A program made the position numbers and the translations under genes. From Rhodanobacter sp. (GTDB taxonomy: Bacteria; Pseudomonadota; Gammaproteobacteria; Xanthomonadales; Rhodanobacteraceae): a stretch of 11,409 bases of DNA. The stretch is taken from assembly GCA_026193555.1 (NCBI GenBank), contig JAPHUU010000305.1, positions 1 to 11,409 of the forward strand, read 5' to 3'. Of the stretch, positions 1 through 11,409 are shown piece after piece (positions within the stretch are counted from its first letter, which is position 1; the number at the start of each line of letters is the position of its first letter). The notes beneath the pieces are model-generated. The model ran no database searches. It saw only the letters and a list, made by a program, of their open reading frames with translations, and had not been told where the DNA came from.

Positions 1-188
1 GAGCGGCGAGCGGCGATGAAGCGTTGCCTTGCAGGCAGCATCATGATCGCGGCACTTCCGGACGGCAATTGCATGGCACGGGACCGGCTCCTCGGCATGG
101 GGCCGTCGTGTCGCCGCGTGAACCACGCACCAGGCCCCTGAACTCGCGATGCCAGTGGACAAAGCCGCAGGTCAAGGCCCCGGCGAAC
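1..188. other. Left-edge stretch without a supportable gene
   Basis: This is the sequence downstream of the last operon gene, fdsD. I see no convincing coding sequence. A plus-strand frame is open from the window edge to a stop at 139-141, but its composition (Arg/Cys/Met-rich, no recognisable motif) does not look like a protein end. The first 14 bases are the heptamer GAGCGGC repeated twice. On the minus strand just after the fdsD stop, GCCGGGG can pair imperfectly with CCTGCGGC and is followed by only a few T residues. That is too weak to call a terminator, so the operon end is undefined here. Confidence 0.5.
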
Positions 189-416
189 TTACTTTGAAAC
201 GTCCGGCACACTCAAACCGGCAACCGCTTCCCTGGCCAGCGGGTTCAGCCCCTCGCCATCGCCAGTGAGGTGGGCCTTCAGTTGCCGCCGCATCACCGGA
301 TCCCAGAACCTGGTCAGGTGATCGCGCACACCCTCGACGGCGGTGGCGTGATCGGGCTCGACCGCGAAATAGGCGGCGATGTCGTTGGCCATGGTGACGA
401 GTCGTTCGATGTTCAT
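189..416 (-). CDS. fdsD: Formate dehydrogenase delta subunit FdsD
   Basis: This is a 75-residue protein of the small NAD-dependent formate dehydrogenase delta-subunit family. Seen: an N-terminus MNIERLVTMANDIAAYF, a central RDHLTRFWDPVMRRQL and a C-terminal LNPLAREAVAGL, all typical of the family. It has no cysteines, membrane segment or signal peptide, so it binds no Fe-S cluster and is cytosolic. Known for the family: FdsD is needed for a fully active enzyme and is thought to help cofactor insertion or complex stability together with the FdhD-type protein encoded upstream. The ATG at 416 forms an ATGA overlap with the fdhD stop (413-416), which argues for translational coupling. An in-frame ATG at 431 would add MARSD and overlap fdhD by 19 bp; I prefer 416 because of the tight overlap and the usual family N-terminus. 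It is the last gene of the operon. Confidence 0.9.
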   Translation of the reverse strand: MNIERLVTMANDIAAYFAVEPDHATAVEGVRDHLTRFWDPVMRRQLKAHLTGDGEGLNPLAREAVAGLSVPDVSK

Positions 417-1240
417 GTCGGATCTTGCCATGGTTCGGGAAGCAGGCGCTGTGGATGGGAGTAGACGTTGTGGCTACCGGGGCGTGTGAAGCCGACCAGG
501 GTGACGCCGGCGCTGTGCGCCAGCTCGATCGCCAGCGCGGTCGGCGCCGAGATCGCGGCCAGCACGGTGATGCCGGCACCGGCGGCCTTGGTCACCATCT
601 CGTAGCTGGCGCGGCTGGTGACCACCGCCATGCCATCGTTGGCGTCGAGCCCGCTGCAGTGCATCGCGCCGATCAGCTTGTCCAGCGCGTTGTGGCGGCC
701 CACGTCCTCGCGCACCAGCGTGACATGCCCGTGGCGGTCGGCCCAGGCGGCAGCATGCACGGCACCGGTAGCGGCGTTCATCGGCTGCCGTGTCTGCAGT
801 TCGGCCAGTGCCTGATCGATGGCCTCGTGCGTAACCCGTGACCCCGCACCGACGGGAGGGTTGTGCCGGATCGCCTGTTCCAGCTCGCGGGTGCCGCAGA
901 TGCCGCAACCGCTGCGGCCGGGCAGCCGGCGTTCGTGTGCGCGATCCAGATGCGCGCCGTGGGTGTCCTCGGCAACCTGCAAGGCCAGTTCGATGCCTTC
1001 CAGCAGCGCGCATGCCTGCACACCCAGCAGCTGCGCCGGCTCGCCAATCAAGCCTTCGCTGAGAGCGAACCCCAGCGCGAAATCCTCCAGGTCGTGCGGG
1101 GTCGCCATCATCACGGCAAAGCTCACCCCGTTGCAGACGACCGCCACCGGCACTTCCTCGGCCACGCAATCGTCCTCGTGGGTCGACTTGCCCTGCCGCC
1201 AGCGATCGATCGGGCGCGAGACAAATCCGTCCTGCGCCAT
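413..1240 (-). CDS. fdhD: Formate dehydrogenase accessory sulfurtransferase FdhD (FdsC)
   Basis: This 275-residue protein matches the FdhD family. FdhD passes sulfur from a cysteine desulfurase to the Mo-bisPGD cofactor before insertion into formate dehydrogenase. Seen: the essential Cys-X-X-Cys loop as G-C112-G-I-C115-G, the conserved GRHNALDK block (residues 181-188), and TSRASYEMVTKAA near residues 208-220 followed by an AAISAPTALAIELA segment. In Cupriavidus-type clusters the gene at this position is called fdsC; the order fdsA-fdsC-fdsD is kept here. The start is uncertain. An ATG at 1240 leaves 7 bp after the fdsA stop, while an in-frame TTG at 1261 would add seven residues and overlap fdsA by 14 bp. 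Neither has a strong Shine-Dalgarno sequence, so translation is probably coupled to fdsA. I chose the ATG. Confidence 0.93.
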   Translation of the reverse strand: MAQDGFVSRPIDRWRQGKSTHEDDCVAEEVPVAVVCNGVSFAVMMATPHDLEDFALGFALSEGLIGEPAQLLGVQACALLEGIELALQVAEDTHGAHLDRAHERRLPGRSGCGICGTRELEQAIRHNPPVGAGSRVTHEAIDQALAELQTRQPMNAATGAVHAAAWADRHGHVTLVREDVGRHNALDKLIGAMHCSGLDANDGMAVVTSRASYEMVTKAAGAGITVLAAISAPTALAIELAHSAGVTLVGFTRPGSHNVYSHPQRLLPEPWQDPT

Positions 1241-1247
1241 CGCCAGC

Positions 1248-4187
1248 TCATGCTTGATCAAGTGAGTCGGCCGACTGCGCCTGATCCAGCAGTTCCTGCT
1301 GTTGCTCGGAGAAGGCGTGGAAGCGCTTCTGCCAGTCCGAAGGCTGGTTGACCCGGGTGACCTGCACCGCGGTGACCTTGTACTCGGGGCAGTTGGTGGC
1401 CCAGTCCGAGTTCTCGGTGGTGATCACGTTGGCGCCGGAGCCGGGGAAGTGGAAGGTGGTGTAGACCACGCCCGGCTGCATGCGCTCGGAGATCATCGCG
1501 CGCAGCACGGTGTCGCCCGAACGACTGCGCACGCCGGCCCAGTCGCCGTCGCTGATGCCGCGCTCCTCGGCATCGTGCGGGTGGATCTCCAGCCGGTCCT
1601 CGTCGTGCCACATCACGTTGGCGGTGCGCCGGGTCTGTGCGCCGACGTTGTACTGGCTGAGGATGCGCCCGGTGGTGAGGATCAGCGGGTGCTCGGCGTT
1701 GACCTTTTCCGAGGTCGGTATGTATTCGGTCAGCATGAAGCGACCCTTGCCGCGCACGAACTCGCCCACGTGCATCACCGGAGTGCCGTCGGGGTGTTCC
1801 TCGTTGCAAGGCCACTGGATCGAGCCGAGCCGGTCGATCTTGTCGAAGCTGACACCATGGAACGTCGGTGTCAGCCGCGCGATCTCGTCCATGATTTCCG
1901 AAGCGTGGCTGTACTGCATCGGGTAGCCCATCGCCTGCGCCAGCTTCTGGGTGATCTCCCAGTCGGCGTAACCGGCCTTGGGCGCCATCACCTTGCGCAC
2001 GCGCGAGATGCGTCGTTCGGCGTTGGTGAAGGTGCCATCCTTTTCCAGGAACGAGCTGCCGGGAAGGAATACATGGGCGTATTTGGCCGTCTCGTTGAGG
2101 AACAGATCCTGCACCACGATGCATTCCATCGCGCTCAACGCGGCGGTGACATGCCGGGTGTCCGGATCGGACTGGGCGATGTCCTCGCCCTCGACGTACA
2201 GGCCGCGGAAGCTGCCGTCCAGCGCCGCCTCGAACATGTTGGGAATGCGCAGGCCCGGCTCGTCAAGAAGAGGCACGCCCCAGTCCTTCTCGAACAGTGC
2301 GCGGGTAGCGGGATCGCTGACGTGCCGGTAGCCGGGAAATTCGTGCGGGAACGAGCCCATGTCGCACGAACCCTGCACGTTGTTCTGGCCGCGCATCGGA
2401 TTCACGCCGACGCCTTCACGGCCGATGTTGCCGGTGGCCATGGCCAGGTTGGCGATGGCCATCACGGCGGTCGAACCCTGCGCGTGCTCGGTCACGCCCA
2501 GCCCGTAGTAGATCGCGCCGTTGCCGCCGCTGGCATAAAGCCGGGCCGCACCGCGCGCCAGCGCGGCCGGTACGCCGGTCTGCGATTCCATCGCCTCCGG
2601 ACTGTATTTGTCCTGGGCGACGAAAGCGCGCCATTTGGCGAACGCCTCCGGTTCGCAGCGCCTTGCCACGAAGTCCTCCTCGACCAGGCCTTCGGTCACG
2701 ATCACGTGCGCCAGCGTGTCGAGCACCGCCACGTTGGTGCCGGGCTTGAGCATGAGGTGGTAGTCGGCCTGGATATGCGGTGTGCGCACCAAGTCGATCC
2801 GGCGCGGGTCGATCACGATCAGCTTGGCGCCGGCGCGCAGGCGCTGTTTCATCTGCGAGCCGAACACCGGATGCGCGTCGGTCGGATTGGCGCCGATCAC
2901 CAGCACCACGTCGGTCTGCTCGATCGAGTCGAAATCCTGGGTGCCGGCCGATTCGCCGAGGGTGGACTTGAGGCCGTAGCCGGTGGGCGAGTGGCAGACG
3001 CGGGCACAGGTATCGACGTTGTTGTTGCCGAAGCCGGCGCGCACCAGCTTCTGCACCAGGTAGGTCTCCTCGTTGGAGCAGCGCGAAGAGGTGATGCCGC
3101 CGACCGCATGCTTGCCGTGAGTCGACTGGATGCGCTTGAACTCGCTGGCGACATGGGTGAACGCCTCGTCCCAGCTCACCACCCGCCACGGATCGGAAAT
3201 CTTCGCCCGGATCATCGGCGTGGTGATGCGGTCCGGATGGCTGGCATATCCGATCGCGAAACGGCCCTTGACGCAGGAGTGACCATGGTTCGCGTGGCCG
3301 TCCTTGTTCGGCACCATGCGCACGATTTCCTCGCCCTTCATTTCGGCGCGGAAGCTGCAGCCCACGCCGCAGTAGGCGCACGTGGTGAGCACGCTGTGCT
3401 CGGCCTGGCCCTTGTCGATCAGGGTGTTTTCGGACAGCGTGGCGGTGGGGCAGGCCTGCACGCAGGCGCCGCAGGAGACGCATTCGGAATCGAGGAAGCG
3501 GTTGTCCTGGCTGGCCGCCACCTTGGATTCGAAGCCGCGGCCCTGGATGGTCAGCGCGAAGGTGCCCTGCACCTCGTCGCATGCACGCACGCAACGCGAG
3601 CAGACGATGCACTTGGACGGGTCGAAGGTGAAGTAGGGGTTGGAAGTGTCCTTCGGCGTGAAGTGTGGATTGGGCTCTTGGTGAGGAGTGCGGCCATGGA
3701 TGGCCGCTTTTTGATCTTCGCGAGCAGGGATGCTCGCATAAACATGATTGGCGCCGTCATAGCCGTAACGCACCTCGCGCAGGCCGACCACGCCCGCCAT
3801 GTCCTGCAGTTCGCAGTGGCCGTTGGCGGGGCAGGTAAGGCAGTCCAGCGGATGATCGGAAATGTAGAGTTCCATCACGCCACGGCGAAGATCGGCGAGC
3901 CGCGGGGTCTGCGTGCTGACCTTCATGCCGGCCGTGACCGGTGTGGTGCACGAGGCCGGGTAACCCTTGCGGCCCTCGATCTCGACCAGGCACAGGCGGC
4001 AGGAGCCGAATGCGTCAAGCATCTCGCTGGCACACAACTTGGGGATGCTGATACCGGCCTGTGCCGCGGCGCGCATCACCGAGGTGCCGGCGGGTACACA
4101 CACGGCCTTGCCGTCGATCTGCAGTTCGATCGTGGTCGGCGAGCTGACCTTCGGAGTGCCGTAGTCGATCTCGACGATGGACAACAT
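1248..4187 (-). CDS. fdsA: NAD-dependent formate dehydrogenase catalytic alpha subunit FdsA
   Basis: This 979-residue molybdoenzyme oxidises formate to CO2 in the cytosol. Seen, in order: an N-terminal [2Fe-2S] domain (C52, C63, C66, C80); a His-Cys3 [4Fe-4S] site (H112, C116, C119, C125); a two-cluster ferredoxin domain (C193, C196, C199, C203 and C236, C239, C242, C246); then the Mo-bisPGD domain with its own [4Fe-4S] site (C270, C273, C277, C305). The Mo ligand is Cys398 in ARVCHSPT, so this is a cysteine rather than a selenocysteine enzyme. His399 follows it, and Arg599 in MRGQNN matches the active-site arginine. The start is supported by an AGGAGGT ribosome site at 4196-4202, 8 bases ahead of the ATG and fused to the fdsB stop. 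The protein is about 20 residues longer than the Rhodobacter and Cupriavidus homologues as I remember them. The extra length maps to a palindromic repeat at residues about 147-176 (see repeat entry). Confidence 0.97.
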   Translation of the reverse strand: MLSIVEIDYGTPKVSSPTTIELQIDGKAVCVPAGTSVMRAAAQAGISIPKLCASEMLDAFGSCRLCLVEIEGRKGYPASCTTPVTAGMKVSTQTPRLADLRRGVMELYISDHPLDCLTCPANGHCELQDMAGVVGLREVRYGYDGANHVYASIPAREDQKAAIHGRTPHQEPNPHFTPKDTSNPYFTFDPSKCIVCSRCVRACDEVQGTFALTIQGRGFESKVAASQDNRFLDSECVSCGACVQACPTATLSENTLIDKGQAEHSVLTTCAYCGVGCSFRAEMKGEEIVRMVPNKDGHANHGHSCVKGRFAIGYASHPDRITTPMIRAKISDPWRVVSWDEAFTHVASEFKRIQSTHGKHAVGGITSSRCSNEETYLVQKLVRAGFGNNNVDTCARVCHSPTGYGLKSTLGESAGTQDFDSIEQTDVVLVIGANPTDAHPVFGSQMKQRLRAGAKLIVIDPRRIDLVRTPHIQADYHLMLKPGTNVAVLDTLAHVIVTEGLVEEDFVARRCEPEAFAKWRAFVAQDKYSPEAMESQTGVPAALARGAARLYASGGNGAIYYGLGVTEHAQGSTAVMAIANLAMATGNIGREGVGVNPMRGQNNVQGSCDMGSFPHEFPGYRHVSDPATRALFEKDWGVPLLDEPGLRIPNMFEAALDGSFRGLYVEGEDIAQSDPDTRHVTAALSAMECIVVQDLFLNETAKYAHVFLPGSSFLEKDGTFTNAERRISRVRKVMAPKAGYADWEITQKLAQAMGYPMQYSHASEIMDEIARLTPTFHGVSFDKIDRLGSIQWPCNEEHPDGTPVMHVGEFVRGKGRFMLTEYIPTSEKVNAEHPLILTTGRILSQYNVGAQTRRTANVMWHDEDRLEIHPHDAEERGISDGDWAGVRSRSGDTVLRAMISERMQPGVVYTTFHFPGSGANVITTENSDWATNCPEYKVTAVQVTRVNQPSDWQKRFHAFSEQQQELLDQAQSADSLDQA
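3675..3750. repeat. Bipartite palindromic repeat embedded in frame in fdsA
   Basis: Two perfect hairpins lie side by side within fdsA. Hairpin 1 (3690-3707) has arms GCGGCCAT and ATGGCCGC and is followed on the plus strand by five T. Hairpin 2 (3720-3737) has arms GCGAGCA and TGCTCGC around a GGGA loop. A 12-base spacer separates them. On the fdsA strand the core starts exactly at codon 151 and reads ASIPAREDQKAAIHGRTPHQ. About 12 of the 26 codons from 151 to 176 end in A or T, against about 1 of the next 20. The flank CTCTTGGTGAGGAGTG (3675-3690) resembles the CTTGTAGGAGCG start I associate with REP-like repeats of xanthomonads and pseudomonads. The outer boundaries are approximate. The T run faces the antisense direction, so sense transcription should not be terminated. 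Confidence 0.78.
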
Positions 4188-4201
4188 GACGCATTACCTC
4201 C

Positions 4202-5761
4202 TCAGGTCGCGGCTTTCTCGGTCACGCCTGAAAAATCTTCGGGGAAATGGTTCAGCGCGCTCAGTACCGGGAACGGCGCCATGCCGCCGAGCGCGCACAA
4301 CGAGCCGTCCAGCATGGTCTGGCAAAGATCGCGAAGCAGCACTTCGCTGCGCTCGCGCTCGCTGCGATCGCCGGCCACAATGCGGTCGATCACCTCGACC
4401 CCGCGGGTCGAGCCGATGCGGCAGGGCGTGCACTTGCCGCAGGACTCGATGGCGCAGAATTCCATCGCGTAGCGTGCCTGCGCCGCCATATCGACGCTGT
4501 CGTCGAAGACCACCACGCCGCCATGGCCGAGCATGCCGCCGATCGCGATGAATGCCTCGTAGTCGATCGGCGTATCGAACTGCGACGCCGGCAGATAGGC
4601 ACCCAGCGGGCCACCCACCTGCGCCGCGCGTACCGGTCGACCGCTGGCGGTGCCGCCGCCGTAGTCGTCGATCAGCTCGCGCAGGGTCAGTCCGAACGCA
4701 CGCTCGACCAGAGCCGGACGCTTCAGATTGCCGGCCAGCTGGATCGGCAGCGTGCCGCGCGAGCGACCCATGCCGTAGTCGCGATAGAACGCCGCGCCGC
4801 GGTCCAGGATGATCGGCACCGAGGCCAGTGTCACCACATTATTGATCACGGTAGGTTGGCCGAACAGGCCTTCGATCGCGGGCAGCGGCGGCTTGAAGCG
4901 CACCTGGCCGCGCTTGCCCTCGAGCGACTCCAGCAGCGAGGTTTCCTCACCACAGATGTAGGCGCCGGCGGCCATGCGTACTTCCAGCCGGAACGCCTTG
5001 CCACTGCCTCGCACATCGCCGCCCAGATAACCCGCTGCTTCCGCGCTGGCAATCGCCGCCTCCAGCGCGCGCTGTGCATGCGGGTATTCGACACGCAGGT
5101 AGATGTAGCCGTGGGTCGCCCCGACCGCGAGGCCGGCAATCGTCATGCCCTCGATCAGCACGAACGGGTCGCCTTCCATGACCATGCGGTCGGCATAGGT
5201 GCCCGAATCGCCCTCGTCGGCGTTGCAGACGATGTATTTCTGCTCGGCCGGTGCGTCCAGGCAGGTCTTCCACTTGATGCCGGTGGGGAATGCCGCGCCA
5301 CCGCGCCCACGCAGGCCGGAGTCGGTAACCTGCTGCACGATCGCGGCGGCGTCCATGACCAGCGCGGCGTCGAGGCCGCGATAGCCGCCGTGCGCCCGGT
5401 AGTCGTCCAGGCTGCGCGGATCGACGATGCCGACACGGGCGAAGGTCAGCCGTTGCTGGCTCTTCAGGTACGGGATTTCCTCCGTCGGCCCCAGCGCCAG
5501 CGAGTGCTTGCCGCCGTTCAGGAAATCGGCATCGAACAGCGAGCCGACGTCCTCCGGCCGCACCGGCCCATAGGCGATCCGGCCCGCGGCAGTGGCCACT
5601 TCCACCAGCGGCTCCAGCCAGTACAGTCCACGCGAGCCATTGCGCACGAGGTTCACATCGATGCCGCGCCGTGCCGTTTCAGTGGCGATCAGGGCGGCCA
5701 CCGATTCGGCCCCCACCGACAGGGCGCCGGCATCGCCAGGAATGTAAACCGTGACGCTCAT
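4202..5761 (-). CDS. fdsB: NAD-dependent formate dehydrogenase beta subunit FdsB (NuoF-like, FMN/NAD-binding)
   Basis: This 519-residue diaphorase subunit takes electrons from FdsA, passes them to FMN and reduces NAD+. Seen: an N-terminal region of about 100 residues corresponding to the thioredoxin-like domain of FdsB; a glycine-rich FMN/NAD loop GRGGAAFPTG (152-161); NADEGDSGTYADRM (180-193), whose GDSGT form is typical of FdsB rather than respiratory NuoF; ICGEETSLLESLEGKRG (269-285); and a C-terminal [4Fe-4S] site C441-X2-C444-X2-C447 with C489. It is homologous to NuoF of complex I, but the neighbours and N-terminal domain place it in a soluble formate dehydrogenase. The ATG at 5761 shares an ATGA with the fdsG stop (5758-5761), so coupled translation is likely. 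A gap of 14 bp separates it from fdsA. Confidence 0.96.
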   Translation of the reverse strand: MSVTVYIPGDAGALSVGAESVAALIATETARRGIDVNLVRNGSRGLYWLEPLVEVATAAGRIAYGPVRPEDVGSLFDADFLNGGKHSLALGPTEEIPYLKSQQRLTFARVGIVDPRSLDDYRAHGGYRGLDAALVMDAAAIVQQVTDSGLRGRGGAAFPTGIKWKTCLDAPAEQKYIVCNADEGDSGTYADRMVMEGDPFVLIEGMTIAGLAVGATHGYIYLRVEYPHAQRALEAAIASAEAAGYLGGDVRGSGKAFRLEVRMAAGAYICGEETSLLESLEGKRGQVRFKPPLPAIEGLFGQPTVINNVVTLASVPIILDRGAAFYRDYGMGRSRGTLPIQLAGNLKRPALVERAFGLTLRELIDDYGGGTASGRPVRAAQVGGPLGAYLPASQFDTPIDYEAFIAIGGMLGHGGVVVFDDSVDMAAQARYAMEFCAIESCGKCTPCRIGSTRGVEVIDRIVAGDRSERERSEVLLRDLCQTMLDGSLCALGGMAPFPVLSALNHFPEDFSGVTEKAAT

Positions 5762-6258
5762 GTCTTCTCCGCGGCCAGCCACGCATCGAAGCGTGCGGGT
5801 GTCAGTCGGCCCACCAGTTCGTCATCCACCAGCATCGCCGGCGAGCAGGCGCAGTTACCCAGGCAGTAGACTGGTTCCAGCGTGTAGGCGCCGTCGGCGG
5901 TGGTCTGATGAAAATCTATGTCGAGCCGCTGTTTGACGTGTCTCTCAAGCGTCGCCCCACCCATCGCCTGACACGATTCGGCACGGCACAGATGGATCAC
6001 GTGCCGTCCGGGCGGCTTGCTGCGGAAGTAGTGATAGAAGCTGATCACGCCATGCACGTCCGCACGCGACAGGTTCAGCTCGCGGGCAATCAGCGGCACC
6101 GCATCGGGCGGGATGTAACCCAGTGCCTGCTGCACGCCATGCAGCACTGGCAGCAAGGCGCCCGGCAATTGCCTGAGACGCGTGGTGACTTCCAGCACCG
6201 CCGTACGGACCTCGTCGGGGAGGTCCGGCAGCAAGGTAATGTTGATGGCACCTTTCAT
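5758..6258 (-). CDS. fdsG: NAD-dependent formate dehydrogenase gamma subunit FdsG (NuoE-like)
   Basis: This 166-residue protein has a thioredoxin-like [2Fe-2S] fold as in NuoE. Seen: an N-terminal helical region with LPVLHGVQQALGYIPPDAV (36-54); VHGVISFYHYF (68-78), the usual family block; and four cluster ligands C91, C96, C132 and C136, with an extra Cys at 138. It pairs with FdsB to form the diaphorase module, where its cluster is the FMN-proximal side site. The ATG at 6258 has an AAGGTG ribosome site close upstream and lies 10 bp after the transporter stop. A TTG at 6300 would extend the frame into the transporter gene and add an arginine-rich leader not typical of the family, so it was not used. 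Confidence 0.95.
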   Translation of the reverse strand: MKGAINITLLPDLPDEVRTAVLEVTTRLRQLPGALLPVLHGVQQALGYIPPDAVPLIARELNLSRADVHGVISFYHYFRSKPPGRHVIHLCRAESCQAMGGATLERHVKQRLDIDFHQTTADGAYTLEPVYCLGNCACSPAMLVDDELVGRLTPARFDAWLAAEKT

Positions 6259-6268
6259 CCGTTCACCT

Positions 6269-7933
6269 TCAGAACAGCGCGGCGGCCTTCGCCAACGCAA
6301 TATACAACCCGATCAGGAACGGTACACCCACCGCCAACCAGGCCAGCATGCCGGTGATGCCGAAGCTGCCGCGTGCGGCCAGCTGAGCACCGGCCGTCAC
6401 GTGCGGCGCCTCGTGCTGCAATGAACGTTCCTGCGCCAGCTCCTCGTCGGTCATGAAGTTCGATGCCTTCACCGGCCGGATCAATGCATTGCAGATCAGG
6501 CCCAGCAACAGCAGGAAGGCCATGATGTACAGCGTGCGGTCGTACACCAGGTTCTTTGCCACGCCGGCGTCGAGCTGGGCCTGACGGATCGCCGCGATCG
6601 CGAACGGGCCGATGATGCCCGCGGCAGACCATGCCGTCAGCAGCCGGCCGTGGATCGCCCCGACCATCTGCGTACCGAACAGATCGGCCAGATACGCCGG
6701 TACGGTCGAGAAGCCGCCGCCATACATGCTCAGGATGATGCAAATTGAGACCACGAACATGCCGGCCATGCCCAGATGACCCCAGGTCGGCAGCAGGCAG
6801 TAGACGATGATGCCGAGGATGAAAAACGTGTGGTAGGTGTTCTTGCGGCCGATCCGGTCCGACAGCGAGGCCCAGAAGATGCGTCCGAGACTGTTGAACA
6901 GGCTGATCAGTCCGACCAGTCCGGCTGCAGCAGCGACGATCGCCGCCTTCTGTGCCGCGGTCAGCGCGGCCGCTGCCTCGGTCAGTCCGGCCAGCTTGCC
7001 GCCAAACACGTCCTGCAGCATCGGGCTGGCCATCGAGATCACCGCGATGCCGGCGGTGACGTTGAGAAACAGCACACCCCACACCAGCCAGAACTGCGGC
7101 GTCCTCCACACCCGGTCCAGATGCATGTGGCGGTGGGTGATCATTGCGGTGCCGTGTCTTTCTTCAGGCGGTGTCCAGCCGGTCGGGCGCCAACCGTTCG
7201 GCGGCACGCGAAAGCCGATCCCGCCGGCCGCCATCACGATCACATAGAGCACTCCCATCACCATCAGGGTCGGGGCGACGCCCTGGGTGCCGGTGGCGGA
7301 GAAGTGCTTCATCAACCACACGGCAAGCGGCGCACCGATCATCGCGCCGCCGCCGTAACCCATGATCGCGAACCCTGTCGCCATGCCGCGACGGTCCGGG
7401 AACCACTTGATCAGCGAGGAAACTGGTGTGATGTAGCCCAGCCCCTGACCGACGCCACCAAGTACGCCGCAGCCCAGATAGACCAGCCACAGCTGGTGCA
7501 TCGACACGCCGATGCCGCCGACCACCAGGCCGCCGCCCCAGCACAACGCAGCGATGACGCCTGCCTTGCGCGGGCCGGCGTGCTCCAGCCAGCCACCCCA
7601 CAGCGCCGCCGAAATGCCCAGCATCGCGATGAAGGTCTCGAAGATATGGGTGACCTGCGGCACCGTCCAGTTGCAGCTGGTGCTGGTCAGCGCCGCGAAG
7701 AAGCCGAGCTTGGCGCATACCATCGGGTCGGTAGTCCCCAGCAGCTTGCTCATCGGCAGCCAGAACACCGAAAAACCGTAGGCCATGCCGATGCACAGGT
7801 GAATCGCCAACGCTGCCGGTGGCACCAGCCAGCGGTTGAAGCGAGGCCCGGCGATGGTGCGTTGCCTGCTGAAGAATCCCGGCCAGGTCCCGGCCGCCGT
7901 GGTGGTGGTCACTGCCTCTGGTACTTCAGCCAT
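6269..7933 (-). CDS. OFA-family MFS transporter, probable formate/carboxylate carrier
   Basis: This 554-residue inner-membrane protein belongs to the major facilitator superfamily, oxalate/formate antiporter group. Seen: about twelve hydrophobic segments, roughly 38-58, 98-116, 124-144, 147-170, 186-207, 222-242, 281-302, 330-350, 367-382, 388-411, 428-450 and 466-484. There is an additional one near 526-549, beyond the usual twelve. The block WFPDRRGMATGFAIMGYGGG (177-196) is characteristic of OFA proteins, and SDRIGRKN (358-365) is the second MFS loop motif. Its place as first gene of the fds operon suggests it imports formate for oxidation, or exchanges it with another carboxylate. Substrate is inference; related OFA proteins carry oxalate, formate, pyruvate or unknown acids. 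The ATG at 7933 follows a GGGGAAG ribosome site that is part of an eight-G run. Confidence 0.88.
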   Translation of the reverse strand: MAEVPEAVTTTTAAGTWPGFFSRQRTIAGPRFNRWLVPPAALAIHLCIGMAYGFSVFWLPMSKLLGTTDPMVCAKLGFFAALTSTSCNWTVPQVTHIFETFIAMLGISAALWGGWLEHAGPRKAGVIAALCWGGGLVVGGIGVSMHQLWLVYLGCGVLGGVGQGLGYITPVSSLIKWFPDRRGMATGFAIMGYGGGAMIGAPLAVWLMKHFSATGTQGVAPTLMVMGVLYVIVMAAGGIGFRVPPNGWRPTGWTPPEERHGTAMITHRHMHLDRVWRTPQFWLVWGVLFLNVTAGIAVISMASPMLQDVFGGKLAGLTEAAAALTAAQKAAIVAAAAGLVGLISLFNSLGRIFWASLSDRIGRKNTYHTFFILGIIVYCLLPTWGHLGMAGMFVVSICIILSMYGGGFSTVPAYLADLFGTQMVGAIHGRLLTAWSAAGIIGPFAIAAIRQAQLDAGVAKNLVYDRTLYIMAFLLLLGLICNALIRPVKASNFMTDEELAQERSLQHEAPHVTAGAQLAARGSFGITGMLAWLAVGVPFLIGLYIALAKAAALF

Positions 7934-7979
7934 GAGTCTTCCCCCCCCTGTGATTTCCGAACGTGATGTTCGACCCCAG

Positions 7980-8033
7980 CGCCCGATGTAGACCATGCAG
8001 CGACGCTACGCTACTCGACCAAAGTCTAAGGTC
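7980..8033 (-). promoter_or_regulatory. Candidate activator-dependent promoter of the fds operon
   Basis: On the minus strand there is a dyad TTAGAC-N4-GTCGAG (8014-8029), nested with a second inverted pair GACC-N9-GGTC (8017-8033). A TCTACA hexamer at 7992-7987 could serve as a -10 element. It has no good -35 partner. If that hexamer is the -10, transcription starts near 7980, and the dyad centre (about 8021.5) falls at -41.5, the usual position for an activator overlapping the -35. The position arithmetic is seen; the promoter role is inference. I cannot name the regulator. Confidence 0.35.
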
Positions 8034-8057
8034 CGGGCTTGTGGCGTGCGGTTCGCC

Positions 8058-8115
8058 GGTCGGGATGCCATCATGAAATCGCCAGGCGCGGCGATCGGCT
8101 GTGCCGTAACCGACC
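8058..8115 (+). other. Possible structured leader upstream of moeA
   Basis: An outer six-base stem GGTCGG (8058-8063) / CCGACC (8110-8115) encloses a perfect six-base hairpin ATCGCC (8078-8083) / GGCGAT (8090-8095) with a six-base loop, plus short pairs GAT/ATC and GGC/GCC on either side. This would form a branched element about 100 bases before the moeA start. Short stems arise easily in GC-rich DNA and I cannot match it to the molybdenum-cofactor RNA motif, so this is only a candidate. The rest of 8034-8217 shows no protein-coding signal. Confidence 0.2.
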
Positions 8116-8217
8116 CACCGGGAGTTTCCTGCAGATGGTTATCCGGATGTCCGGTGTTGCGTACCGCCACCGATCTTGCGCCGCACTATTCGCCCCCTGG
8201 GCAGCGAGTTCCCGACG

Positions 8218-9498
8218 ATGATCGACTATGACACGGCCCTGCAACGCCTGCTGGCGCAGGCCCGACGGTTGCCAGCCGAATTGTCCGCGCTCGCGCAGGC
8301 AGCGGAGCGGATTCTCGCCGCTGACCTGATCAGCCCGATCGCGCTACCTTCGTTCGATCACGCCGCGATGGACGGCTATGCGCTGAGTGCCGGCGAAGCG
8401 CTCGCCGCTGGAACCGAGCATGCGGTGCGCGGCTCGCAGGCTGCCGGCGACGCTGCCCGCGGATCGCTCGGCGGCGCCTGGGAAATCATGACCGGCGCAC
8501 GGCTGCCTGACGGCCTCGATGCCGTCATCGCGGTGGAGCGCGCCGAGTTGATCGAAGCGAGGCCGGATGGCACCCCGTTGCGTATCCGGCTGCGCGAGCC
8601 ACTGGCCGCGGGCCGCAATGTGCGTCTGACCGGCTCCGATGTAGCCGCAGGCGAGGCCGTGCTCGGTGCCGGCACCCGCATCGAGTGCGCCCATCTGATG
8701 CTGCTGGCAGCACTGGGCGTGGCCCAGGTCGCCGTGGTCCGTCGTCCACGTATTGCCATCATCTGCACCGGCAAGGAACTGCAGGCGGATCTCGCACAGG
8801 CGCTGCGCCCCGGCCAGATCTACAACTCGAACGGTCCCTACCTGACTGCCGCGCTCGCTGCCCTGGGCGCCCACGTGTTGTCGTGTGACACCGTGGACGA
8901 TAGTGCGGTGACCTATGGAGCGGCACTGCGCCGTGCCATCGATGCCGACGCGGATCTGGTGATCAGTACCGGCGCCGTCTCGATGGGGCGCTACGACTTC
9001 GTGCCCGACACGCTGCGCCAATTCAACGCCGAACTGCTGTTCCACAAGGTGGCGATTCGCCCCGGTCGACCGCTGCTCGCCGCCAGGCTCGACCATGGGC
9101 CGCTGGTGGTGGCGTTGCCCGGCACGCCGATGGCGGTGGTGGCCGGCCTGCGCTTCTTCGTCACCCCGCTGCTGCGCGCGATGACCGGGCAGGGCGGCGA
9201 GCCACCGCTGCGCGCCATCCTCGATTCGCCGCAGCAACCGAAGGCCGGACTGCGGCATTTCCTGCGCGCCACCTTGCATCAGGACGCGGAAGGACAGTGG
9301 CACGCGGCTGTCCCCAGTCAGCAGCAGCCCTACCGCATCCAGCCCTTCGCCCAAGCTGACGCATGGGTGGTGCTGGGCGAGGACGCCGGTGACTGTGCGG
9401 CGGGCACCCGCGTCGAGGTAGTCGGTCTGGAGTGCGGCAGGTCGTTGAGCACCGGCAATGCACATCAAGCCCAAGCTGGTTGGCGAGGTAGCCCATGA
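8218..9498 (+). CDS. moeA: Molybdopterin molybdenumtransferase (MoeA family)
   Basis: This 426-residue protein matches MoeA, which inserts molybdate into adenylylated molybdopterin to make Moco; the E. coli protein has about 411 residues. Seen: FDHAAMDGYAL (46-56) with the active-site Asp52; WEIMTGARLPDG (88-99); CTGKELQ (183-189) retaining Glu187; STGAVSMGRYDFVPDTL (250-266) with Asp260; KVAIRPGRPL (277-286); and ALPGTPMAVVAG (299-310) with prolines 301 and 304. Several motifs differ from textbook MoeA (TGDEL, GGVSVG, GLPGNP), so it belongs to a variant subgroup. An ATG at 8218 gives the family N-terminus; a TTG at 8176 adds 14 unconserved residues. It is divergent from the formate dehydrogenase operon, whose enzyme needs this cofactor, and may be a dedicated insertase or the only housekeeping copy; the window cannot tell. 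Confidence 0.92.
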   Translation: MIDYDTALQRLLAQARRLPAELSALAQAAERILAADLISPIALPSFDHAAMDGYALSAGEALAAGTEHAVRGSQAAGDAARGSLGGAWEIMTGARLPDGLDAVIAVERAELIEARPDGTPLRIRLREPLAAGRNVRLTGSDVAAGEAVLGAGTRIECAHLMLLAALGVAQVAVVRRPRIAIICTGKELQADLAQALRPGQIYNSNGPYLTAALAALGAHVLSCDTVDDSAVTYGAALRRAIDADADLVISTGAVSMGRYDFVPDTLRQFNAELLFHKVAIRPGRPLLAARLDHGPLVVALPGTPMAVVAGLRFFVTPLLRAMTGQGGEPPLRAILDSPQQPKAGLRHFLRATLHQDAEGQWHAAVPSQQQPYRIQPFAQADAWVVLGEDAGDCAAGTRVEVVGLECGRSLSTGNAHQAQAGWRGSP

Positions 9499-9842
9499 AA
9501 TTGCAGATCGAAGGCCAGCAGCTGCGGGTGCGTATCAACGAGGACGAGCTGTCGCAACTGCTTGCCGGTGACGCGCTGGAAGCGGCTACCCGGTTCGCGC
9601 TGGCGTTTGCCATCCGCTTCACGCTGCGGCTGACTGCACAGGACGAAGCCGGGTTCTCGGGCGTGGCCGATGCCTGGCAGATCACCTTGCCCGACGTCGC
9701 CGTGCGCGAACATGCCGCGCGACTGCCCACCCGCGAAGGTTTGCGTTTTGTACTGACCGGCGAGCGCGCGCAGGACGCACTGGTGCTGCTGTTTGATGTG
9801 GATGTGCGGGACAGTGTCAGGCGACGCAGGCCCGAGCCGTAA
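9495..9842 (+). CDS. Uncharacterised 115-residue protein coupled to moeA
   Basis: I do not firmly recognise this protein. Its ATG lies in an ATGA overlap with the moeA stop (9495-9498) and has a GAGGTAG ribosome site, so it is very probably real and co-translated with moeA. Seen: an N-terminal strand-rich MKLQIEGQQLRVRINEDEL, a helix-like stretch about residues 20-45, a strand-rich FTLRLTAQDEAGFSG, and a C-terminal LVLLFDVDVRDS followed by a basic tail RRRRPEP. There are no cysteines, membrane segment or signal peptide, so it is probably cytosolic. The N-terminal pattern loosely recalls small DUF7009-type proteins, from memory and at low confidence. Coupling suggests a link to molybdenum cofactor or formate dehydrogenase maturation, but that is inference only. 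Confidence 0.8.
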   Translation: MKLQIEGQQLRVRINEDELSQLLAGDALEAATRFALAFAIRFTLRLTAQDEAGFSGVADAWQITLPDVAVREHAARLPTREGLRFVLTGERAQDALVLLFDVDVRDSVRRRRPEP

Positions 9843-9914
9843 ATTGCCAGCGAACCGGACGGTGCTTTCGGTCGACCGATGACCGCCAACCGCGCACACC
9901 TTCACGAGGCTCCC

Positions 9915-11408
9915 ATGTTCAAGGAATACACCCACTACGACGCCACCGGCCTGGCCGACCTGATCGCCCGCGGCGAGATCTCCGCCGCCGAGGCACTGGA
10001 GGCGGCGATCGCGCGGGCGGCGCAAGTGAATCCGCGACTGGCGGCGATCTGCATCCCGATGGAGCAGGTCGCGCGACAGCGGGTGCAGTCGCCGCTGCAG
10101 GGGCCATTTGCCGGCGTGCCGTTCCTGCTCAAGGACATCGGCCAGGACTACGCCGGTGTGCCCAGCACCTCGGGCAGCCGGGCACTGCGCGACTGGATAC
10201 CGGATCAGCACGCCGAGATTGTCAACCGCTTCCTTGCGGCCGGCCTGGTGGTTTTCGGCAAGACGGCCACGCCGGAATTCGCGTTGAAGGCCGAGACCTC
10301 GCCGTTGCTGTGGGGCCGCGCTACCCGCAATCCATGGGATATCGAGCGTACGCCGGGTGGTTCCTCCGGTGGCGCGGCAGCGGCGGTGGCCGCCGGCATC
10401 GTGCCGGCGGCAGGCGCATCGGATGGCGGCGGATCGATCCGCATCCCCTCCTCGTACTGCGGGTTGTTCGGGCTGCGCCCTTCGCGTGGCCGGGTGCCGA
10501 ACGGACCCGGCCACGGCGAGTTCTGGGACGGAGCCTCCAGCCAGCACGCGCTGACCCGCAGCGTGCGCGACTCGGCGCGTCTGCTCGATGCGATTGCCGG
10601 CGCCGACGCGGGGGCGCCATTCGCCATCGCCGCCCCGGAGCGTGCCTATGCCGAGGAAACAGCGCGCCCGCCGGGCCGACTGCGCATCGGCTACAGCACG
10701 CAGTCACCACTGGGTACGCCGGTACACCCCGAATATGTGCAGGCGGTGCTGCACACGGCCGCGCTGCTCGCCGATCTCGGTCACGATGTGACACCGGCGC
10801 AGCCGCAGCTCGATGGCCACGCGCTGGCGCGCAGCTTCGTCACCATGTACTTCGGCCAGACCGCGGCCAGCATCGCCCGCGCCCGTCGACTCACCGGTGC
10901 GGGTGCACGCGAGTTCGAACTGGAGACGCGCGTCCTCGCGCTGCTGGGCCGCACGCTGAGCGCCGGTGACTATGTGGATCAGCACCTGCACTGGAACGAG
11001 TACACCCGTGCGCTGGGACGCTTCCACCAGACCTTCGACCTCTACCTCACCCCGACCGCCGCGCAGCCGCCGAACCGCATCGGCGAACTGGCCACGCCGC
11101 CGCTGCAGCGTGCGCTGGCCGAGGTCGTGCTGGCCCTGGGCGCAGGACGCCTGCTGCTGAAAAGCGGCATGGTCGCTGAACTGGTGGAAACCAGCCTGCA
11201 GCGCGTGCCGTTCACCCAGCTGTCCAACCTCACCGGCACGCCGAGCATGTCGGTGCCGCTGCACTGGGCTGCGGCCGAGGCGGGTGGGGCAGAGCTGCCA
11301 TTCGGCGTGCAATTCGTCGGGCGTGTCGGTGACGAGGCGACCCTGTTTCGCCTCGCCGCGCAGTTGGAACAGGCGCGGCCGTGGGACAGGCGGCGTCCCG
11401 CGCTTTGA
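9915..11408 (+). CDS. Amidase signature family hydrolase
   Basis: This 497-residue serine amidase uses a Ser-cisSer-Lys triad. Seen: catalytic Lys73 in LLKDIG; the glycine/serine block GGSSGGAAAAVAAG (148-161) with cis-Ser150; and nucleophile Ser174 in SDGGGSIRIPSSYCGLFGLRP, where Ser174 lies 24 residues after Ser150 as in well-studied members. The C-terminal half has TPTAAQPP and QLSNLTGTPSMSVPL with PFGVQFVGR, typical of this family. No signal peptide is evident. It is complete: the TGA at 11406-11408 precedes the last base of the window. The ATG at 9915 has GAGG a few bases upstream; an ATG at 9879 would add 12 residues and is less well placed. The substrate cannot be deduced. A 72-bp gap separates it from the preceding gene, so it may have its own promoter, and a functional link to formate metabolism is not shown. 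Confidence 0.9.
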   Translation: MFKEYTHYDATGLADLIARGEISAAEALEAAIARAAQVNPRLAAICIPMEQVARQRVQSPLQGPFAGVPFLLKDIGQDYAGVPSTSGSRALRDWIPDQHAEIVNRFLAAGLVVFGKTATPEFALKAETSPLLWGRATRNPWDIERTPGGSSGGAAAAVAAGIVPAAGASDGGGSIRIPSSYCGLFGLRPSRGRVPNGPGHGEFWDGASSQHALTRSVRDSARLLDAIAGADAGAPFAIAAPERAYAEETARPPGRLRIGYSTQSPLGTPVHPEYVQAVLHTAALLADLGHDVTPAQPQLDGHALARSFVTMYFGQTAASIARARRLTGAGAREFELETRVLALLGRTLSAGDYVDQHLHWNEYTRALGRFHQTFDLYLTPTAAQPPNRIGELATPPLQRALAEVVLALGAGRLLLKSGMVAELVETSLQRVPFTQLSNLTGTPSMSVPLHWAAAEAGGAELPFGVQFVGRVGDEATLFRLAAQLEQARPWDRRRPAL

Positions 11409-11409
11409 C

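Follow-up and report, generated by a model that had tools for sequence, protein, structure and literature searches.

A dispersed hairpin-pair repeat of the Rhodanobacteraceae is read in frame within a variable linker of the formate dehydrogenase subunit FdsA and in other enzymes

Several families of small palindromic repeats are known to lie within bacterial genes. The GTAG/CGTC repetitive extragenic palindromic (REP) sequences are dispersed and mostly intergenic, with some copies inside open reading frames (ORFs). In the published account, more than half of the intragenic copies are dimers or groups that code for 20–30 residues, clusters coding for 43–82 residues are reported in Thauera and R. 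conorii, many intragenic copies lie in DNA-repair genes, and REPs occupy approximately the same site in the recB genes of X. campestris and X. oryzae (Di Nocera and colleagues 2013, PMC3733652). The Rickettsia palindromic elements (RPEs; Ogata, Claverie and colleagues), of 105–146 bp, are inserted in frame into conserved genes and tolerated there (PMC3733652, PMC2229807), and an active Rickettsia guanylate kinase bears an RPE insert with a changed substrate affinity (Delihas 2007, PMC2229807). The enterobacterial ERIC (enterobacterial repetitive intergenic consensus) and YPAL elements and the Correia miniature inverted-repeat transposable elements of Neisseria are likewise small mobile repeats that take part in in-frame gene fusions (Delihas 2007, PMC2229807). 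Here we describe a REP-like repeat in an 11,409-nt stretch of DNA from Rhodanobacter sp. (assembly GCA_026193555.1, contig JAPHUU010000305.1, positions 1 to 11,409), hereafter the window, where one copy is translated as part of fdsA, the gene for the formate dehydrogenase alpha subunit.

Positions 3675–3744 of the window (plus strand) form a two-hairpin palindromic repeat that is 94% identical to a 69-nt consensus built in this analysis (E-value 5e-24). Hairpin 1 (3690–3707, plus strand; GCGGCCA-TGGA-TGGCCGC), which is followed by T5, and hairpin 2 (3720–3737, plus strand; GCGAGCA-GGGA-TGCTCGC) each have a perfect 7-bp stem and a 4-nt loop and are joined by TTTTTGATCTTC; a preliminary description, made from the sequence alone, had already recognized both with their perfect arms. 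RNA folding of the 70-nt element compared with shuffles gave z = -3.67 on the plus and -4.98 on the minus strand, and a shuffled window is expected to contain the hairpin-1 pattern 0.13 times when up to three mismatches are allowed. An Rfam search with five sources gave three weak matches, every one outside the element, and a plasmid search gave a single 25-nt match (E 3). In its in-frame insertion the element behaves like the RPEs, a parallel drawn in the preliminary description that holds in a comparison by description and not by sequence, whereas in build it differs from them, with ~69 bp in two separate hairpins. The ERIC, YPAL and Correia elements differ as well, having 100–200 bp, long stem-loops and, in several cases, terminal inverted repeats, in contrast to two hairpins in series (PMC2229807).

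The host gene fdsA (1248–4187, minus strand) encodes 979 residues and is identified by Pfam, by TIGR01591 above its cut-off and by the solved structure of R. capsulatus FdsA (6tg9_A), which matches across residues 8–958. Read from the minus strand, the element encodes residues Y150–E171 (3675–3740), with codons 150–171 giving YASIPAREDQKAAIHGRTPHQE and the frame open throughout the element. The claim that the element is open and in frame thus stands, with its start at codon 150 and not, as first placed, at codon 151. An abrupt excess of A/T-ending codons had also been claimed and is borne out: GC content at third codon positions is 0.50 in the 22 insert codons vs 0.87 in the remaining 957, and outside the insert not one 22-codon stretch of FdsA is as low as 0.50. 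The insert follows residues 112–125 (3813–3854, minus strand), where His112, Cys116, Cys119 and Cys125 align with the ligands of the A4 [4Fe-4S] cluster of R. capsulatus FdsA, and precedes residues 189–210 (3558–3623, minus strand), where a ferredoxin-type domain (PF12838, PF22117) starts after the linker with C193 as its first cysteine; the alignment and the Pfam domains fit the site given in the preliminary description. AlphaFold models, with a mean predicted local distance difference test score of 39.9 for whole FdsA (29 sequences) and 55.7 for residues 1–265 (44 sequences), score too low to place the loop.

The host genome (2.96 Mb in 465 contigs, 89.9% complete), searched with a 76-nt query, contains seven loci that match at E ≤ 3e-5, the window locus among them, so that further copies of the hairpin pair do exist there; own-genome copies lie internally in fdsA and mutS and at the C terminus in ilvE. 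The consensus finds matches in 45 of 45 genus genomes, own included, with 3 to 29 hits each where in many genomes the best 20 candidates were scored. In a sample of 200 genomes from the order, with up to four candidates scored per genome, 23 were positive and all lie within the host family, at least 11 members of which gave no match. This family is the Rhodanobacteraceae by the named loci, and the named FdsA loci place the host next to Rhodanobacter and Dyella. Judged from this distribution, the element is a dispersed palindromic repeat specific to the Rhodanobacteraceae, which agrees with the lineage repeat proposed earlier. We also find compensatory changes of the kind expected of a selected nucleic-acid hairpin. 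Among 191 copies elsewhere, meaning away from the six genes treated below, 90.5% of stem 2 pairs are Watson–Crick vs 82.1% with the arms shuffled (reached in 0 of 1000 shuffles), and stem 1 in 197 copies is 94.7% paired vs 91.1% shuffled (maximum of 500 shuffles 91.7%), both uncorrected for kinship. The element therefore has the properties of a REP in being a short, dispersed, palindromic repeat of many copies and mainly extragenic position. It differs from the GTAG/CGTC superfamily in the tag, which among 156 copies reads AGAG 84 times, AAAG 21, ACAG 13, ATAG 12, GGAG 7 and GTAG once; inspection by eye of the majority sequence of the copies showed no CGTC tag next to either stem. Copies also occupy gaps in the ribosomal operon. 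Several genomes have the element in the same gaps, one ahead of a gene starting MAKPVKTKKKIKRVVTDAVAH (presumably rpsK) and one ahead of a gene starting MARYRGATCKLARREGADLSLKS (which we take to be rpsD); the loci concerned are L134, L136, L150, L151, L157 and L183 (~1490–1560) and L203 and L207 (~1499–1567).

Across 81 distinct FdsA sequences (the window's own and 80 loci), the linker between H148 and the D(E/T)S(N/T)PYF block ranges from 5 to 91 residues in the relatives. It is short (5 residues) in 25 and of middle length, mostly 14–17 residues, in 36; ten contain the element in the sense orientation (own, L027, L034, L036, L043, L057, L060, L064, L065, L103), three contain it in the opposite orientation (L039, with a weak match, L054 and L055), and two (L029, L059) resemble decayed copies with no match at the DNA level. 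In Dyella sp. EPa41 (L057) four units follow one another in frame at a spacing of exactly 60 nt. The linker of the solved R. capsulatus FdsA is shorter than that of the window FdsA, and 22 of 32 close relatives (the rows of a 32-row tree) lack the element in FdsA. Conservation of the segment in length and sequence in all FdsA proteins, named in the preliminary description as the outcome that would overturn it, is thus not observed. The clean gap at residues ~147–176 that it anticipated is not found either, since the element takes the place of ~7 residues (such as KTKQGEA) in a former linker of 17 residues, which on balance becomes 14 residues longer. The left end of the element, TTTATGCG, resembles HVYA codons already present in L042, a species without the element, and this likeness may be a reason for the use of the FdsA site. 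A candidate PK haplotype downstream of the FdsA insert was tabulated. The breadth of linker lengths, together with five long linkers that show no element match, might suggest ordinary length variation of a linker under low constraint, with palindromes arising by chance. We regard this as exceedingly improbable given the DNA-level identity to a repeat dispersed in the own genome and the genus, the compensatory stem changes and the near-identical peptides that the element encodes in unrelated enzymes.

Such enzymes were found by scoring codon usage over 300 nt on either side of 185 distinct element clusters, which comprise 232 copies. A listing of in-gene copies and their frames had been called for, and 21 of the 185 clusters lie in genes, every one with the frame kept on both sides: 11 in mutS, 3 each in fdsA and recJ, and 2 each in gcvP and ppsA. 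Among the rest, 33 have the same best frame in both flanks without being open through, 97 lie between flanks that differ in frame or strand, 31 have one coding flank and 3 have none. These 164 include the IlvE tails and one RecJ array, the threefold array of L222, which shows that the codon score under-calls; moreover, most of the 185 clusters are the copies that score best against the own-genome consensus, and the proportion found in genes is therefore no measure of the rate across a genome. In-frame copies occupy loops of MutS, RecJ, GcvP and PpsA and form a C-terminal tail of IlvE. Nine of 30 MutS loci from the genus search have it (52–58 residues), and 21 have a 42-residue loop. The RecJ loop (27 of 30 loci read) carries it in both orientations (L222, L226, L313, L348, L349), the opposite one in L348 and in L349, where the DNA match is weaker, and as a threefold in-frame array in genome G220 (L222). 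In PpsA, 3 of the 14 readable loci of 30 have the element (50, 50 and 47 residues vs 29). Two of the 29 GcvP loci read (of 30) contain the full element and two more (L378, L379) match part of it; across the genus the GcvP loop differs widely in length, and it has a 13-nt match in the own genome (L377) and none in L380. The IlvE tail, which begins beyond the end of the IlvE family model, is encoded by the element in 11 loci (L003, ~1500–1594, L127, L158, L176, L182, L186, L188, L191, L192, L193 and L284) and threefold in L145. In many Rhodanobacteraceae this tail ends directly ahead of the next gene, which we take to be leuC. A family-wide peptide search gave further IlvE, MutS and RecJ cases, and a doubled peptide matched in 6 of 197 family genomes. 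The family-wide search also gave long open frames beyond its 30 loci, for example in G073 and G210, and element copies lie within further ORFs in L426 and L431. Since in-frame copies occupy loops or tails of FdsA and five other enzymes, such repeats can rewrite protein loops while leaving the reading frame intact.

The frames in which the element is read do not appear to be a random draw from those that are open. Read in reverse, the consensus gives VYAIIPDREDQKAAIHGRTLHK (frame A) or FMRSSLIAKIKKRPSMAALFTR (frame B), and in the forward orientation LVKSAAMDGRFLIFAIRDDRIN (frame C) or SCEECGHGWPLFDLRDQG followed by a stop and SHK (frame D); the third frame contains a stop in reverse and stops in forward orientation. 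In 183 copies not flagged as in-gene, IlvE tails included, frame A is open in 89%, B in 80%, C in 85% and D in 36%. All 19 in-gene clusters in reverse orientation use frame A and both forward clusters use frame D; the IlvE tails are in frame A and, judged by eye, the opposite-orientation FdsA and RecJ cases in frame D. With each gene counted once, 5 of 5 use A and 3 of 3 use D, each with a chance of ~0.02 under use in proportion to open frames. Hydropathy is lower in frames A and D (-0.65 and -1.06) than in B (+0.07) and C (+0.25). Tandem growth also respects the frame: in five in-gene arrays (L057, L112, L145, L152, L222) all 10 junctions have spacings that are multiples of three, in contrast to 11 of 39 elsewhere, a count that excludes one unlabelled pair adjoining a ferredoxin-like gene (L007, spacing 44). 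Loop replacement with the frame kept, and tandem growth, can be read directly from these sequences.

We consider it highly probable that the window segment is a copy of a Rhodanobacteraceae repeat lodged in the variable FdsA linker, where it adds, in frame, a hydrophilic segment of ~22 residues, and that this peptide is most likely a tolerated passenger and not a functional part. On this account, transposition or a DNA-exchange process would bring copies into genes, selection would remove them except where they keep the frame in tolerant loops or tails, and some in-gene copies, those of fdsA and ilvE, would remain in place as resident alleles, passed on by descent or by exchange between species while gradually decaying. 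Several observations, in this and the following two paragraphs, weigh against parts of this account. First, an association with REP-associated (RAYT) Y1 tyrosine transposases, which marks the GTAG superfamily, is not seen: among 30 Y1-transposase loci, covering up to ~1.5 kb on each side, none has the element at E < 0.1 (best E 0.17). Y1 transposases are present in 36 of 45 genus genomes, yet no Y1_Tnp hit occurs in G011, G028 or G029, three genomes rich in the element. Genome G008 has four full-length Y1 transposase matches of similar score (contig C1, 1648764, 238641, 1767206 and 3876972), and at the one G008 locus examined (L244) the element is not nearby. Second, five of the 81 FdsA linkers (L056, L061, L084, L092, L099) are long (18–32 residues) with no element match, so that linkers also grow by other routes. 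Third, the own-genome GcvP loop (L377) reads MDGR at its 13-nt match to the forward element (E 0.024); this is possibly a remnant of the element, in which case it is in frame C and runs counter to the frame rule.

The variants of stem 2 bear on how often the element has entered fdsA. Among the 191 copies elsewhere the commonest forms are GATC/GATC (76) and GTTC/GAAC (53). The GAGC/GCTC form of the window occurs in 6 of 13 fdsA copies, two of which (L027 and L113) are identical in DNA, and in none of the 191; four further fdsA copies, the EPa41 units, have GCGC/GCGC, which is also not seen in the 191; and GGTC/GACC occurs in 19 of 23 ilvE-labelled copies vs 3 of 191. These private variants speak against a large number of recent insertions out of the genomic pool. 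An alternative, which in our judgement comes close to being probable, is a single ancient insertion into fdsA that was inherited and often lost or exchanged by homologous recombination. Rhodanobacter-like, Oleiagrimonas and Dokdonella loci have GAGC/GCTC in common in their fdsA copies, from which Dyella sedimenti differs by a single base, and the left junction, HVYA or HVFA, is identical in most aligned sense carriers. Yet the opposite-orientation copies of L039, L054 and L055 require separate insertion, and the sense carriers are not a clade: a single clade of seven of them is rejected on the 32-row tree (P = 7.5e-5, approximately unbiased test), although this group was named after the first tree had been seen. 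An FdsA tree computed without the linker, for 58 of the 81 sequences, requires at least 10 changes of element state and pairs L027, with the element, with L042, without it, as sisters (Shimodaira–Hasegawa-like approximate likelihood ratio support 99). Moreover, non-carriers keep loops like those of outgroups, so simple deletion is insufficient and exchange is required. The patchy presence of resident copies accordingly suggests allele exchange. A count of ten independent insertions, taken from the tree, was given up as the main claim once the private stem variants appeared. As far as their sequences indicate, the fdsA and ilvE copies resemble long-established, gene-bound lineages, passed on by inheritance or exchange, more closely than they do recent insertions.

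The preliminary description held that a mobile repeat of this lineage had been exapted as a surface linker. Its first part, a lineage-specific dispersed repeat in frame in fdsA, stands; the term exapted is not supported. The ratio of nonsynonymous to synonymous polymorphism (pN/pS), computed over 16 codons of the element, is 1.45 in 23 ilvE-labelled and 1.00 in 16 mutS copies vs 1.26 in 134 copies elsewhere, so that ilvE and mutS copies give no sign of constraint on the protein. As no general selection on the peptide is found, exaptation is not established. In fdsA the ratio is 0.52 in 12 labelled copies (the four EPa41 units and one opposite-orientation copy included) and 0.48 in the seven single sense copies, few sequences but below the 2.5% bound of 0.79 from random sets of 10 copies from elsewhere; this leaves room for constraint and also belongs among the points against a mere passenger. 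A functional FdsA loop, serving in dimer contact, partner docking or stability and kept by selection on the peptide, would fit this ratio and the position of the linker after the A4 ligands, the A4 (His-Cys3) cluster lying at the FdsA dimer interface in R. capsulatus (PMC7171172). We nevertheless think it unlikely: beyond the values for ilvE and mutS and the 16 codons and few sequences behind the fdsA ratio, a sister species does without the insert, and in other lineages the element is on the opposite strand, fourfold or apparently decayed. Thus, a tolerated passenger remains our preferred reading of the FdsA insert, and the element peptide appears mostly unconstrained, with a hint of constraint confined to fdsA.

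The remaining window features at 189–1261 (minus strand), 4202–7996 (minus strand) and 8176–9498 (plus strand) give fdsA the context of an fds operon. Pfam identifies Complex1_51K (fdsB-like), a 2Fe-2S thioredoxin-like protein (fdsG-like) and major facilitator superfamily genes, and the context presumably also includes an FdhD-like gene, a possible fdsD and a MoeA-like gene.

The family described here resembles the intragenic GTAG/CGTC REPs in its dispersed palindromes, some of them translated within genes, in its tandem arrays and in its use of shared sites. As the published account sets out, translated intragenic REPs, their arrays, their frequency in repair genes and a shared insertion site are already known from other bacteria (PMC3733652). 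The Rhodanobacteraceae element differs in having no conserved GTAG tag and no Y1 transposase found alongside, in its targets, mutS, recJ, fdsA, gcvP, ppsA and ilvE, in the occurrence of both orientations at a single loop and in its gene-private stem variants. The terms mutS, Rhodanobacter and Dyella are absent from the main text of that paper, whose supplementary list of target ORFs lies outside this check, and among the titles and abstracts listed in our searches none describes this repeat family in Rhodanobacter or Dyella. In the free-living bacteria studied here several states exist side by side: sister species with and without the insert, both orientations at a single site, one to four copies in tandem and apparently decayed versions. 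Because these states coexist, the cost and the fate of a repeat-derived loop become directly measurable on FdsA, MutS or RecJ. DNA-repair genes, two of them in this case, once more figure among the targets, which is relevant to the proposal in the literature that inserts of this type tune repair. Finally, we put forward, tentatively and as something short of probable, that the hairpin repeat may be a recurrent loop-replacement module in the Rhodanobacteraceae, one that would overwrite the same variable loops or tails in each of six housekeeping enzymes, at least two of which have it in both orientations, and that would combine frame-preserving tandem growth, private lineages and a trade of alleles between species. 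If this is true, palindromic repeats would represent an ongoing supply of new loops in conserved enzymes.

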